Below are positions 36,943 to 41,838 of a DNA stretch of 47,796 nucleotides, in pieces (the first letter of the stretch is position 1; each line of letters starts with the position of its first letter). The DNA lies in assembly GCA_016788375.1 (NCBI GenBank), contig JAEUSI010000007.1:1-47796 (forward strand), in the 5' to 3' direction. The notes under the pieces are model-generated. The model made no database searches, was not told where the DNA came from, and saw only the letters and a list, made by a program, of their open reading frames with translations. Source of the stretch: Ignavibacteria bacterium. GTDB taxonomy: Bacteria > Bacteroidota > Ignavibacteria > Tepidaquicellales > Tepidaquicellaceae. The position numbers were made by a program, and so were the translations under genes.

Positions 36943-38325
36943 ATGTCTGTATTGATTAAAAATGGAAGAGTTATCACTGCATCTGAAGATTATATAGCGG
37001 ATATTTTTGTCGAAGGAGAAAAAATTTCTGCAATAGGCAGAAATTTAAAAGCAAATGCTGATGAAACTATTGATGTTTCGGGTAAATTTGTTTTTCCCGG
37101 CGGAATAGACCCGCATGTACACCTGGACATGCCTTTTATGGGTACATTTTCAAGTGATAATTACGAAACCGGAACTCTGGCTGCTCTTTACGGAGGAACA
37201 ACAACTGTAATTGACTTTATTTTACAGACTCAGGGCAAATCGTTATACAGTGCACTTGATGAATGGAGAAGCCGTTCTGACGGAAATTGTTACAGCGACT
37301 ATTCTTTTCATATGGCGGTAACTGATTTCAATGATGAGACTAAAAAAGAAATTAAGGATTTGATCTACAAAGAAGGTATTACTTCTTTCAAGACTTTCAT
37401 GGCTTATAAAGGTGCACTTATGATTGATGACAGACAAATGATAGGATTAATGAATGAAGTCAGGGATATGGGCGGACTCGTAACTGTTCATGCAACCAAC
37501 GGCGATATGATAGATTATCTGACAGCAAAACACAGGTCAGAAGGAAAACTTTCTCCTCTATATCATTATCTTTCACAGCCTGAAATTTCCGAATCAGAAG
37601 CAGCCGGAAGATTTGTTGATATGGCTTATCATACAGATGTACCATGCTATATTGTGCATCTGACCTGCGAAGGTGCTTTAAATCAAGTAAGGGATGCAAC
37701 AAGACGCAATCAGAAAGTGTTTGTTGAAACATGCATTCAGTATCTGATTCTGGATGCTTCATTATACGAAAAAGATTTCGAAGGAGCAAAATGGGTAATG
37801 AGTCCTCCTTTGAGAGAGAAAAAAGATCAGGCAACTTTGTGGGCAGGAATAAATCAGGGATTAGTGCAAGTTGTCGGAACCGATCATTGTCCTTTTGAGT
37901 GGAAAAAGAAACTTATGGGTGAAAAAGATTTTTCAAAAATTCCAAACGGTCATCCTGCAATAGAAAACAGAATGGAACTGTTATTTTCAGAAGGCGTCGA
38001 TAAGGGAAAAATAAGTCTGAACAGTTATGTAGAAGTCACTTCTACAAATTCAGCTAAAATTTTCGGGATGTTCCCGCAAAAAGGAACTGTCGGTATCGGA
38101 AGTGATGCTGATCTGGTGATATTTGATCCGAAAAAAAAACATACTTTATCTGCCAGGTCCCATCATATGAATGTAGATTACTCTGCTTATGAAGGCAGAG
38201 AAGTAAACGGAAAAGTTGAGACTGTTTTGATGAGAGGAAATGTGGCTGTTCATGAAAATAAGGTAAAGATCGGTAAGGGTTACGGGAAATTCATTAAGAG
38301 AGGAAAAGCAAGTAAAATTATTTAA
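36943..38325 (+). CDS. hydA: Dihydropyrimidinase/hydantoinase
   Basis: A 460-residue amidohydrolase with every metal ligand of the D-hydantoinase/dihydropyrimidinase family: His58 and His60 (DPHVHLD), the carboxylated Lys150 (TSFKTFMAYKG), His183 (VHATNGD, where HAENGD is usual), His239 (YIVHLT) and Asp314 (GTDHCPF). SPPLREKKDQ is also diagnostic. It opens the ring of dihydrouracil or dihydrothymine to N-carbamoyl-beta-amino acids. The beta-ureidopropionase that should follow is not in the window. It is the last gene of the catabolic cluster and is probably co-transcribed with the transporter. Confidence 0.92.
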   Translation: MSVLIKNGRVITASEDYIADIFVEGEKISAIGRNLKANADETIDVSGKFVFPGGIDPHVHLDMPFMGTFSSDNYETGTLAALYGGTTTVIDFILQTQGKSLYSALDEWRSRSDGNCYSDYSFHMAVTDFNDETKKEIKDLIYKEGITSFKTFMAYKGALMIDDRQMIGLMNEVRDMGGLVTVHATNGDMIDYLTAKHRSEGKLSPLYHYLSQPEISESEAAGRFVDMAYHTDVPCYIVHLTCEGALNQVRDATRRNQKVFVETCIQYLILDASLYEKDFEGAKWVMSPPLREKKDQATLWAGINQGLVQVVGTDHCPFEWKKKLMGEKDFSKIPNGHPAIENRMELLFSEGVDKGKISLNSYVEVTSTNSAKIFGMFPQKGTVGIGSDADLVIFDPKKKHTLSARSHHMNVDYSAYEGREVNGKVETVLMRGNVAVHENKVKIGKGYGKFIKRGKASKII

Positions 38326-38351
38326 GTATGTTAATAATAATACTGTTTTTT
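38325..38351 (+). terminator. Weak intrinsic terminator after hydA
   Basis: AGTAT (38325-38329) pairs with ATACT (38340-38344) across an AT-rich loop and is followed by G and six T residues. The stem overlaps the stop codon and is short. The T-tract is convincing; the stem is not. Confidence 0.35.
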
Positions 38352-38425
38352 ATCTCAGATTAAAATATTCAGTTTTTAAACAGCAGGGATATGATAATTT
38401 TCCGTAATTAATTTTCATAAAAATT

Positions 38426-39052
38426 ATGAAATTTAAAGAAGGAAATTTTTATCATATATACAATCAGGGAATTAACTATCAGAATATTTTTTTCAGGAGA
38501 AAAAATTATTCGTACTTTTTGTTCAAATTAAGAAAATATATCAGACCTTTTTGCGAACTTAATGCATATTCGCTGATACCCAATCAGTTTCAGTTACTTA
38601 TTTATTCAGTTAAAAGTACAACTATTCATGATTCAAAAGGAAAGAATAATCTAAGCGAAGGATTCAGATTGTTATTGAGTTCATATGCAAAGGGAATTAA
38701 CAGACAGGAAAACAGAAGAGGATCATTATTTATGCAGAATACAAGATGTAGATATATTTCACCTGATGATTTGTTAGCGGGATATTGTTTTCAGTATATT
38801 CATCAAAGTCCTGTGAGAAATCAGTTAGTGAAAAAACTCAGCGAATGGGAATTTAGTTCTTACAAAGAATATTCAGAAAGAAAAGATAATGGTGTGTGTA
38901 ACAGAGTACTTACCGGAAAGTTACTAGGAATTGACAATACAGATATTGAAAACTACACAAATAATTTGTTGTCTGAAGAAATAATTAAAAAATATTTCAA
39001 AAACATAGAAAGAAATGTGCCACATTTTCAAAATGTGCCACACTTTAGTTAG
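38426..39052 (+). CDS. RAYT/IS200-like protein with altered HUH motif
   Basis: The 208-residue protein has the Y1-transposase (REP-associated tyrosine transposase) layout: FYHIYNQGIN at the N-terminus, the strand pair around YFLFKLRKYI, the HUH strand, SLFMQNTRCRYI, YIHQSPVRNQLV and the Tyr region WEFSSYKEYS (Tyr146 or Tyr149). The expected PNHFHLLI is PNQFQLLI: both metal-binding histidines (positions 54 and 56) are glutamines. With no HUH site the usual single-strand nicking should be impossible. Flanking insertion-sequence ends are not evident. The last 12 residues are a tandem NVPHFQ/NVPHFS encoded by palindromic repeats. A decaying or domesticated RAYT fits best. Confidence 0.75.
   Translation: MKFKEGNFYHIYNQGINYQNIFFRRKNYSYFLFKLRKYIRPFCELNAYSLIPNQFQLLIYSVKSTTIHDSKGKNNLSEGFRLLLSSYAKGINRQENRRGSLFMQNTRCRYISPDDLLAGYCFQYIHQSPVRNQLVKKLSEWEFSSYKEYSERKDNGVCNRVLTGKLLGIDNTDIENYTNNLLSEEIIKKYFKNIERNVPHFQNVPHFS
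39013..39046. repeat. Tandem palindromic repeat at RAYT gene end
   Basis: AAATGTG-C-CACATTT (39013-39027) is a perfect 15-bp palindrome and also the first of two copies of an 18-base direct repeat. The second copy at 39031 reads AAATGTGCCACACTTT, with one arm mismatch. The repeat lies within the last codons of the RAYT-like gene. RAYT proteins typically act on short palindromic sequences, so this may be such a site. Confidence 0.6.
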
Positions 39053-40695
39053 TATTAATGTAATAATAATATTTTATTTAAAAATATATAATTTCGGAAA
39101 ATTAAATCAATATCAAATGTTAACTTCCCTGTTTTCTTCATAGAACAGTTCTTCGATTCTAACTGATAGCTTTTCATTGCGTTTATCTGTTATTTATATT
39201 GTGAGTATTTTTTCATTAAAACTGTTTTTCGATTTTAATCTTTATTATTTCAGATAAGTGAATCATAAATTCGCAATGAACTGATTACTGATCTTCTGAA
39301 ATAAATTTCTCCTTACTTAAGAAAATGTCTGAAAGCATCAATCGCAGAAAATGCCCGATCCTTCATTTTTTGTTCATAATTTATTCTAAGTGTATAACAT
39401 TTTACCATTACTTTCATCAGAAACAATCTGAAACTTGTCTTATAAAATACTTAAGAGCTTTATTGTAATATTTAAATCTGCAATTCATAAAAGCCTTACA
39501 GTAATTAACCATCAGATTTTTCTCCTGCAGGAGATATCCGGTTCTGAAACCTGTTTAAAAAATCATCAACCCATTTTAAATCATCAGCCTTATAGGCGGA
39601 CGAAAAAGGAGAAACAATATTTTCATAGAAAGTATAACTTTGCAGAGTAAATTTTCTTTCAAATATTTGCTTAAACTATATATACCTATTCTTGTAAAAA
39701 TTTCCTTCACCGAGTCTTAATCTGTATATCGCAAAGGAATAAGGCACAAAAAGAATGTAATAAACATCTTCATCAGTAAAACTTCAGATACCTGTTTTCA
39801 GCTCCGGAAGTTCTCTGTAACATATTTGGCTTTTGTCAGTTCAAGTTTAACAATCTGTCTGTATAACATAAGGGAGGAATTCAATTTAGTTTAATCATTA
39901 TTAGGAAGTTCCATATATTTTTGAACATCTTCAGATCAAACTTAATGTTACCGTGATTTCTGTTTGTTTACATATTTGAGTAACTGCAAATTATATCTAT
40001 AGTGAATACTAATATAATGAATCTGATTCTATTTATATCAGATCGAACAAGTAACCTGTTTTCTTAAATTTGAAATGTGAAGTATTTATTTTTGAAAATT
40101 GATAATTGAAATAATAATATAACTCATCCTTTATTTCAACCTTTCCGAGAAAATCTTTAATTTTCTTTTCCTTCTGAACATAGAAAGATTATAGATTGCT
40201 TTTTTGCGAAGTTTGTTTAGTCCAGTATCTTTGCCGGTTCCTATTATCATAAGTGCAGATACCGAGATAGACATTGATAACTGATACATATCCGAAACAA
40301 AATATTTTATTTTAGAAAAATTAAACTTCCCCCGCAAAAAAAGCATACGGAAAATTTCTTCTTCGTTAAAGCAGGGAAAATTAATCAGGGATTAAATTTT
40401 AGAACAGTTTCACTCAATCATACAACATTTTGATGTTTTCTGAAAAAAGAAAAGCTGACAAAATTCCTAAATCTGTTTATTTCCTGCTTTAAATATGTCT
40501 ATAAATGTTTTTACAGGTTTTGTATTTGTCAGTTATTTAAGATTTATTTTATAACGGATTGATTTCCGGAAGCTGTATAAAGTAATTGTTATGATGATTT
40601 ACAAGAAATTAAGCAGGCGTTACAAACCGAAGTGTTTTTAATTTAAATCCGGATAAAAAATGTAAGGAAATTTGTTTTACTTGCAAACATTATAT
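39053..40695. other. AT-rich 1.6-kb region without an intact gene
   Basis: This region lies between the 3' ends of two convergent genes, so no promoter space is needed, yet it spans 1,643 bases. Short open frames (39435-39650 plus strand; 40131-40346 minus strand) have no recognisable motif. A minus-strand stretch, 39676-39846, reads as plausible protein (VYYILFVPYSFAIYRLRLG) but carries an in-frame TGA at 39784-39786, so it may be a gene remnant. Near its left end are an imperfect direct repeat (39134-39162 and 39209-39238) and an inverted pair TTCATTGCG/CGCAATGAA (39173-39181 and 39272-39280). No tRNA is visible. Confidence 0.6.
39134..39238. repeat. Imperfect direct repeat pair
   Basis: Two segments of about 30 bases, 39134-39162 and 39209-39238, share the pattern TTCAT.(A)AAC.GTT.TTCGATT.TAA with a period of about 75 bases. 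No third copy is seen. Two copies do not make a CRISPR array. Confidence 0.4.
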
Positions 40696-41838
40696 TCATC
40701 CCGATATTATCTTCTCGTAAAACTTCTCATACATCGGGACAATATTATTTTCGCTGAGTTCTTCAGCCCGTTTGCGGGCATTTGCGGAAAGCAAATCATA
40801 CCTCTTCTGATTGGAAAGCAGTTCTACGGCATATTTGGCCATTCTTTCAACATCACCAATTTCTGCAATATAACCTGTTTCTCCGTGATGATTAAGTTCA
40901 GGAAGACCTCCGACACTCGATGAAATCACGGGTACTCCGCAACTCATTGCTTCGAGTGCAGCAAGACCGAAACTTTCCGATTGTGAAGGAATAACAAAGA
41001 TATCTGAAACTGAAAGAAGCTCTACAAGTGAATCCTGCTTGCCCATGAATTTTATTTCTTCAAATATACCTAATTCCCTGCTGAGCCTTTCACAGTCTCC
41101 CCTTTCCGGACCATCACCTACCAAAATGAGCTTAGTGTCAATTTTCTTTTTTACCTCGTCGAATATTTTTATTACATCCTGAACTCTTTTTAACGCCCGG
41201 AAATTAGAGGTATGAATCATTATCTTTTCTCCGTTCGGAGCGAAGTTTTTCTTGAAACATTTAGTTTTTTCATCTTCTTCCCTTTTATATTTATTTACGT
41301 CAATAAAATTGGGAATCACTTCTATTTCCTTATTAATCTTGTACTGCTGCTGTGTTTTATCCCTGAGAAATTTTGAAACTGCCGTTACTCCGTCGGATTT
41401 TTCTATGCTGAATTTCATGGTTGGAAGAAAACTCGGTTCGAGACCTGTCAGAGTAATATCGGTTCCGTGAAGAGTAGTGATGAATTTTATGTCAATTGAA
41501 TTGTTTGTCTCGGATTTGAGAATTTCCCTCGCAAGATATGCACTTGTCGCATGTGGAATTGCATAGTGAGCATGAAGCAGATCAAGATCATTGAACCTAA
41601 CTACTTCCACCATTTTACTGGCAAGCGCTATGCTGTATAAAGGAAATTCAAACAAAGGATAACTGTTTATTTCAACTTCATGATAAAAAATATTGTCAAT
41701 AAAACCGTTCAGCCTGGTCGGCATTGCATAAGAAATAAAATGAATTTCATGTCCCCTGAGCGCAAGTGCTTTACCAAGTTCAGTAGCTACAACACCGCTT
41801 CCTCCGTATGTAGGATAACAGGTAATTCCTATTTTCAT
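40696..41838 (-). CDS. bshA: N-acetyl-alpha-D-glucosaminyl L-malate synthase
   Basis: The 380-residue GT4 glycosyltransferase carries clear BshA hallmarks: start KIGITCYPTYGGSGVVATELG, LLHAHYAIPHATSAYLA, TLHGTDITL, GVTAVSKFL and the GT-B donor site VIPSQSESFGLAALEAMSCGVPVI. It couples UDP-GlcNAc to L-malate, the first step of bacillithiol synthesis, in the cytosol. The deacetylase BshB and the cysteine ligase BshC are not in this window. The neighbouring gene is divergent and unrelated. Confidence 0.93.
   Translation of the reverse strand: MKIGITCYPTYGGSGVVATELGKALALRGHEIHFISYAMPTRLNGFIDNIFYHEVEINSYPLFEFPLYSIALASKMVEVVRFNDLDLLHAHYAIPHATSAYLAREILKSETNNSIDIKFITTLHGTDITLTGLEPSFLPTMKFSIEKSDGVTAVSKFLRDKTQQQYKINKEIEVIPNFIDVNKYKREEDEKTKCFKKNFAPNGEKIMIHTSNFRALKRVQDVIKIFDEVKKKIDTKLILVGDGPERGDCERLSRELGIFEEIKFMGKQDSLVELLSVSDIFVIPSQSESFGLAALEAMSCGVPVISSSVGGLPELNHHGETGYIAEIGDVERMAKYAVELLSNQKRYDLLSANARKRAEELSENNIVPMYEKFYEKIISG

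Follow-up and report, generated by a model that had tools for sequence, protein, structure and literature searches.

The window, the stretch of 47,796 nucleotides analysed here, contains an open reading frame (ORF) for a RAYT-like protein with glutamines in place of both histidines of the HUH motif. This raises the question whether the gene is a nuclease in very recent decay or encodes a DNA/RNA-binding protein that no longer nicks, the two possibilities offered by an earlier inspection of the letters (the sequence-only reading). The ORF starts with ATG and runs without interruption over 208 amino acids, and its translation includes AYSLIPNQFQLLIY. The features of the protein are as follows:

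38426..39052, + strand: ORF of a RAYT-derived protein of 208 aa in which the metal site is absent (QFQ); sub-threshold NCBIfam match and 4er8 fold match
38585..38593, + strand: codons 54-56, CAG TTT CAG, giving Q-F-Q instead of H-u-H (column statistics)
38795..38797, + strand: Tyr124, the kept catalytic-tyrosine position (alignment)
38807..38809, + strand: Ser128 at Tyr+4, replacing the Asn that serves as third metal ligand (alignment; ligand role from PMC6006769)

At the site of the RAYT motif PNHFH the window protein reads PNQFQ, and the region of Tyr124 is aligned to Tyr115 of the E. coli RAYT whose structure has been determined (4er8). The exchange of both HUH histidines for Gln and the retention of the Tyr region over full length with no frameshift, both asserted by the sequence-only reading, are thereby confirmed. 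The third ligand, the Asn of the Y---NP motif (N119 of E. coli TnpAREP according to PMC6006769), is lost as well, and Pro at Tyr+5 is kept in the clade of four described below. This third-ligand loss, the conserved locus and the dispersed palindrome set go beyond what had been noticed before. The source genome (G000, 3.54 Mb) is a draft assembly in which a second close copy of the gene was not found, the sole other match having an E-value of 0.1. As judged by motif reading, contig C116 of this genome carries a RAYT-like ORF with intact motifs (PNHLH and YIHRNP).

Pfam yielded no match to the window protein at E-values up to 1. The NCBIfam family REP_Tyr_transpos (NF047646) was matched with an E-value of 2.1e-6 and 27.7 bits, whereas the curated cut-off is 80; with 46.2 bits, L134, which is HFH, does not reach it either. 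The best AlphaFold2 model, based on an alignment of six sequences, has a mean pLDDT of 83.3 and a pTM of 0.84, the pLDDT over five models ranging from 83.3 to 54.1. In this model, strand 54-60 carries Q-F-Q, and helix 117-131 carries Tyr124. In the structural check proposed by the sequence-only reading, the best match in the PDB is 4er8_A, a RAYT in complex with a REP hairpin (Z 16.4, r.m.s.d. 2.5, Foldseek E 2.0e-7; 158 residues aligned of the 165-residue chain), and the Y1-transposase fold is present over the full length. The next structural matches are transposases of the IS200/IS605 type (Z 7.6-9.4). Matches to tRNA-His guanylyltransferase (Z 5.9-7.7) were judged to reflect a common arrangement and no kinship. 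A shared fold does not establish function, and the protein is classified here as RAYT-derived and not as an active RAYT, since the HUH histidines and the Asn at Tyr+4 are absent.

A search of 44 genomes from this order gave matches at E <= 1e-6 in 14, counting that of the window. The three sequences closest to the window protein are encoded in G424, G425 and G419, which belong to the same family as the window's genome; they are 49%, 47% and 45% identical, respectively, and their frames are intact. Their motifs read NQFN, NQFN and SQFN, and the same-family genome G409 has NHFH. In all four proteins the first HUH position is Gln (Gln54 in the window), the second is N, N, N or Q, and the residue at Tyr+4 is not conserved (S, K, K, L). 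When a profile of the four was run against 391 genomes of the class, the same four came out on top, all below E 1e-101, followed by G409 with E 2.2e-63. They form one clade in a tree of 69 non-redundant rows (support 100/98) and again, after masking of the three ligand columns, in a tree of 31 rows (98/94). In both midpoint-rooted trees this clade is nested among HFH rows, which indicates common descent with HUH-intact RAYT members. The sequence-only reading had envisaged that all homologues might prove to be HFH; three orthologues lack both histidines.

His, His, Tyr and Asn are all present in 64 of the 69 non-redundant rows, which were obtained after dropping six duplicates. Both His and the Asn are missing with the Tyr kept in four rows, namely the window protein and its three orthologues, and the remaining row, L051, has HFE and Thr at Tyr+4. 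All 39 additional rows have H, H, Y and N (40 were fetched, and L154, a 16-aa fragment, was dropped). Outside the clade the four residues are kept in 103 of 104 aligned relatives, and the Tyr is conserved in all 108 aligned rows, including the four clade members. Left out of these counts under the start-codon rule were L019 (8 aa) and L028 (28 aa), both of which read NHFH. Conservation in 90% or more of the HFH rows applies to 25 columns; the window protein keeps 21 of these residues, and the four losses are the three metal ligands and Cys49. L037 likewise keeps 21, L036 19 and L035 17. Since only the ligands and Cys49 are lost, with wider losses in L035 and L036, the damage in the window protein is centred on the metal site.

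Row L051 (L051:1501-1968, G424:C77) represents a second RAYT-like ORF of G424 with an intact 214-aa frame, in which two of the three ligands are altered on a branch separate from the clade of four. At E 1e-5 nothing was matched among phage records, and the four matches among plasmids are distant (25-30% identical). Among viral contigs no relative was found with the clade profile A2, and the broader profile A3 retrieved two rows, both NHFH. The viral contig IMGVR_UViG_3300033553_000531 (L134:2001-3531) carries an HFH RAYT-like gene directly upstream of type II cas1 (TIGR03639, 318.3 bits).

The locus of the gene is defined by two neighbours:

36943..38325, + strand: dihydropyrimidinase (D-hydantoinase), immediate upstream neighbour, conserved in all four clade genomes (TIGR02033, 588.5 bits)
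40696..41838, - strand: bshA, the next gene downstream (TIGR03999, 549.6 bits)

In each of the four clade genomes the gene is situated directly 3' of the dihydropyrimidinase gene. The latter was found at E <= 1e-100 in 14 of the 44 genomes of the order, four of which have the RAYT-derived gene directly 3'. In the fetched 1.0-1.5 kb downstream it was not found in the other ten, which include G395, from the genus of the window, and G423, from the genus of G424 and G425 and 67% complete. Both G395 and G423 gave no match elsewhere in the genome at the cut-off used, and tblastn detected no relic behind dihydropyrimidinase in the fetched stretches. The order dihydropyrimidinase, RAYT-derived gene, bshA is shared by the window and G419, and in G395 dihydropyrimidinase is followed by bshA with the RAYT-derived gene absent. 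Presence in three genera at one site, combined with absences inside two of them, is most simply read as old inheritance with losses, a site-directed gain being a further possibility. Between the gene and bshA (39053-40695) lies a 1.6-kb AT-rich stretch with 27% G+C. The only listed ORF of at least 80 aa in it, 40672-40923 (+), extends into bshA in antisense orientation. A search of this stretch at E 0.05 for remnants of genes from five neighbouring stretches was negative.

For the orthologues of G424 and G425 a dN of 0.083 and a dS of 0.58 were obtained, corresponding to a dN/dS of 0.14 (NG86) or 0.15 (YN00). The neighbouring dihydropyrimidinase has a dN/dS of 0.037 (NG86) in the same pair, and the constraint on the RAYT-derived gene is thus real but weaker than that on its neighbour. 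Between genera dS is saturated (1.3-2.2), and selection on the window branch is therefore judged by frame survival and residue retention instead of a ratio. The suggestion of a Q-F-Q clade under purifying selection, which the sequence-only reading had put forward for checking, stands in so far as Q occupies the first position in all four and the G424/G425 ratio is about 0.14, but the second position is N, N, N or Q and dS on the window branch is saturated. Very recent decay, in turn, is rejected, because the loss is common to three orthologues at one syntenic locus and the G424/G425 pair is under purifying selection.

The hairpin element of the clade has the form GTGTGGCACA-TTT ... AAA-TGTGCCACAC, with arms AAGTGTGGCACATTT / AAATGTGCCACACTT. 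In G424 and likewise in G425, 10 of 11 hits of GTGTGGCACA are arranged in five inverted pairs; two inverted pairs each account for all 4 hits in G423 and for 4 of 5 in G419. About 1e-4 to 1e-3 inverted pairs are expected, and the 10-mer has 35 hits in six genomes versus 6 for the reversed control. The unpaired arm-like hits are lone matches (G424:C427, G425:C120, G000:C52, G000:C301, G419:C28, G425:C186 and G423:C381). In G424 and G425 the inverted pairs are found beside the gene and at four further sites each, and palindromes that accompany the gene and also occur at other sites are a feature shared with RAYTs. In G419 both inverted pairs flank the gene, so that the orthologue (L124, G419:C6) is bracketed by one full element on each side, resembling a terminal-inverted-repeat unit. 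G395 has no GTGTGGCACA, but a related 12-mer, TGTGGCACATTT, forms one short hairpin there. Since the gene was not found in G395 and G423 but one short hairpin is kept in the former and two long ones in the latter, neither partner strictly needs the other.

All 14 long elements are inverted doublets with a divergent spacer that can form a hairpin, as in a REPIN. Watson-Crick pairing is found in 14 of 14 elements at fourteen of the 15 stem positions and in 13 of 14 at the remaining one. Thirteen of the 15 positions are invariant, one varies between A-T, C-G, T-A and G-C and another between T-A and C-G; where change occurs, stem pairing is kept via two-sided changes. In seven orthologous comparisons with flanks of 71-92% identity, 26 of 26 arm positions are identical every time, versus loop matches of 50/67, 18/34, 28/33, 57/69, 16/33, 16/33 and 27/34, a contrast that is overstated because the arm 10-mer was the search key and the comparisons are not independent. 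The missing G424 orthologue of the site G425:C213 falls at contig ends; an orthologue of G424:C193 is likewise missing from G425.

The window itself contains one member of this set:

39016..39042, + strand: hairpin within the 3'-terminal part of the ORF, with a short loop, belonging to the GTGTGGCACA-arm set (folding)

Folded as single-stranded DNA, this segment gives -8.0 kcal/mol (z -3.97) on the + strand and -11.8 kcal/mol (z -6.0) on the - strand. The repeat at 39016-39052 is translated into the C-terminal VPHFQNVPHFS, which is absent from the three orthologues. Four hits of GTGTGGCACA were found in the window's genome, with no long pair among them: the ORF-end hairpin and a short hairpin at C70 contain one each, and the other two lie in unrelated sequence. 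This genome thus has two short hairpins and none before the RAYT-derived gene, and its own copy, fused into the ORF end, is of the short-loop kind with no long doublet. Rfam gave nothing at the gathering threshold in 38200-40800. The adjacent palindrome to which the sequence-only reading referred does exist as a hairpin, but it lies inside the ORF and belongs to a small dispersed set. The RAYT-like ORF at G000:C116, intact as judged by its motifs, could be an alternative partner for the hairpins.

Several hairpin sites lie close to start codons. The distance from the hairpin end to the start codon, identical in G424 and G425, is 33 nt for an amidohydrolase, 17 nt for an amino-acid permease, 9 nt for a RluA-family pseudouridine synthase and 42 nt for the RAYT-derived gene itself. 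In G419 the right arm lies 8 nt before the start of the RAYT-derived gene, and three of the four clade genomes have a hairpin before this gene's own start. The pseudouridine-synthase site of G423 was left out of the start distances, as the rule chose an ATG inside the element. The sites G425:C213 and G423:C459 are located 9-10 nt after a stop codon, and G424:C193 is positioned between divergent genes, 300-440 nt from either. Several sites lie between co-directional genes. This is a common setting for REPs, and a leader function is therefore suggested, no more.

Hairpins are also associated with the HFH relatives. A scan for GTGGCAC/GTGCCAC was positive near the gene at five of eight HFH loci (L003, L008, L038, L039 and L040) and negative at L004, L006 and L007, and this hairpin core accordingly does not go with the protein family everywhere. 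The 12-mer TTCGTGGCACGA was counted in 7 of the 13 searched genomes of one genus. It occurs 51 times in G399, 32 times in G306 and 29 times in G401, which are HFH genomes, and 4, 3, 3 and 0 times in the same-genus genomes G271, G400, G408 and G403, which had no match at E <= 1e-6. In G399, G306 and G401 it constitutes a REPIN-like family. Many G399 copies are inverted and about 79 nt apart, with 22 of the 51 sites spaced 78-81 nt when chosen as neighbouring inverted pairs. The HFH genome G409 has zero TTCGTGGCACGA and its own variant, GGTGGCACGG.

The explanation adopted here, with modest confidence, is that the clade represents a nuclease-dead, vertically inherited RAYT which is kept by selection, is most likely hairpin-binding and perhaps regulatory. 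Fold, Tyr, locus and hairpins are kept, the ligands are lost and the hairpins are few, and from these computed features we infer loss of nicking, hairpin binding and regulation, in decreasing order of strength. A RAYT grips its hairpin and, by means of metal and Tyr, cuts next to it; removal of three ligands should stop cutting and spare the grip. The whole metal site, i.e. both HUH histidines and the Asn at Tyr+4, would have been lost in the common ancestor of this small clade, and the folded but nicking-dead protein would then have been inherited vertically at one locus under selection. By what is known of the family, the ligand loss argues strongly for an inability to nick. In view of the fold and the hairpins, the clade protein is likely to bind the hairpin with the arms AAGTGTGGCACATTT / AAATGTGCCACACTT, either in folded single-stranded DNA or in RNA. 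The location of hairpins just before start codons, including that of the gene itself in three of four genomes, points to probable regulation and autoregulation. By this hypothesis the protein might be a small regulator, or a hairpin-occupying protein with autoregulation, acting on a few genes including its own. Binding without nicking, the second possibility of the sequence-only reading, is hence favoured on the indirect evidence of the fold, the three-ligand loss and the conserved hairpins.

A more specific proposal, possible but rather doubtful, is that a REPIN-RAYT system has turned cis-regulatory, in which case the dead RAYT would bind the leaders of the pseudouridine synthase, the permease, the amidohydrolase and itself and control their expression. 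If true, this would be the transcription-factor-like role so far only speculated for RAYTs.

Slow decay, in which catalysis was lost in the ancestor, the gene is lingering and the hairpins persist unchanged from a time when the RAYT was active, is considered unlikely. It would account for the absence of the gene from the locus in two same-genus genomes, for the low number of hairpins (the arm 12-mer is present 51, 32 and 29 times in three HFH genomes), and for the faster evolution of the window copy. This copy has the longest end branch of the four (1.21 versus 0.63, 0.13 and 0.10) and 34 lineage-unique residues versus 19 in L035, and it departs at 14 and keeps 51 of the 65 positions common to G424, G425, G419 and G409, so that relaxation in the window species is possible. 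However, the low dN/dS of the G424/G425 pair, the conserved arms and start-codon distances and the intact frames of three orthologues at 45-49% identity to the window copy are at odds with slow decay, since simulated neutral drift breaks the frame well before such divergence is reached. In a simple, substitution-only simulation on the L035 coding sequence, 3 of 1000 frames were stop-free at 0.2 substitutions/site and 0 of 1000 at 0.31, and dN on the window branch is near 0.31 (three-point sum on NG86 values).

Two further explanations are slightly less likely still. In a rewired nuclease, the amides of Gln54 and Gln/Asn56 might hold a metal weakly, or the Tyr might act metal-free, allowing slow or specialised processing of single-stranded DNA. 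HUQ motifs are functional in some viral Rep proteins, and both the invariance of the Tyr and the identity of Gln54 in all four would suit such an enzyme; yet the third ligand is gone and its replacement varies, which is unexpected for a rewired metal site. No better are the prospects of an antagonist, which would compete for hairpins or form mixed complexes with intact RAYTs and thereby limit hairpin spread. Hairpin copy numbers are low and, by motif reading, RAYT-like ORFs with intact HuH and Y coexist in G000, G424, G425 and G419, but nothing indicates that these recognise the same hairpin, and E. coli TnpAREP is regarded as monomeric. The sequence-only reading had also allowed for errors in the two codons. 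Their origin in sequencing or assembly, for which the draft state with its 345 contigs might speak, is rejected as having a negligible chance, because both histidines and the Asn at Tyr+4 are missing from three further assemblies as well.

The proposal of a nuclease-dead RAYT retained for hairpin binding has to be set against what is known of the family. PMC6006769 reports that out of 924 sequences the 722 in which the HuH and the Y motif were both present were kept, that absence of the motifs was taken to suggest non-functional proteins, and that 5 of 10 class 3 members are without conserved HuH or Y. Motif-less RAYT relatives as such are hence not new, and clades of the kind described here would drop out under a filter for HuH and Y. 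Apparently new is the retained clade lacking the metal site: a literature search of open-licence papers found no description of a retained RAYT without both histidines. A conserved RAYT that is presumably unable to nick and is accompanied by few conserved hairpins would be a natural case of binding uncoupled from catalysis.

With RAYT / TnpAREP (4er8; class 2 TnpAY1 in PMC6006769) the clade shares the fold, the catalytic Tyr, the Pro at Tyr+5 and the dispersed palindromes, but it differs in that the defining metal site, i.e. the HUH histidines and the Asn at Tyr+4, is absent. Another group for comparison is TnpAY1 subclass 2.6 / RAYT group 5 of Bacteroidetes, for which the same paper gives NH[LIV]H, YIH[QN]NP and 'atypical secondary structures'. 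Going by the printed motifs alone, the YIHQNP of HFH relatives such as L003 and L038 agrees with this group, whose description also includes unusual hairpins that flank the gene and recur at other genomic sites. In contrast, the relatives have NHFH instead of the printed NH[LIV]H, and the window clade is without H, H and N. TIRtrons / TIRYTs, as presented in PMC3733652, consist of a RAYT-like gene flanked by terminal inverted repeats with copies elsewhere, an arrangement comparable to that of G419; the TIRYTs aligned there are said to keep the HUH motif, whereas the clade does not.

Like REPINs as defined in PMC8049555, the elements of the clade have two inverted arms and a divergent spacer and can form hairpins in single-stranded DNA or RNA. 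They differ in number: the window's genome has no long pair, and G419, G424, G425 and G423 have only 2-5 each. Their arms are 15 bp and their loops 33-34 or 66-71 nt long, and four G424/G425 pairs occupy orthologous positions. The same paper describes RAYTs as single-copy, vertically inherited, domesticated transposases, the exact function of which it calls unknown, and cites a speculation that REPIN and RAYT might act as a pair of promoter and transcription factor. In the clade described here, this idea becomes testable on a few sites.
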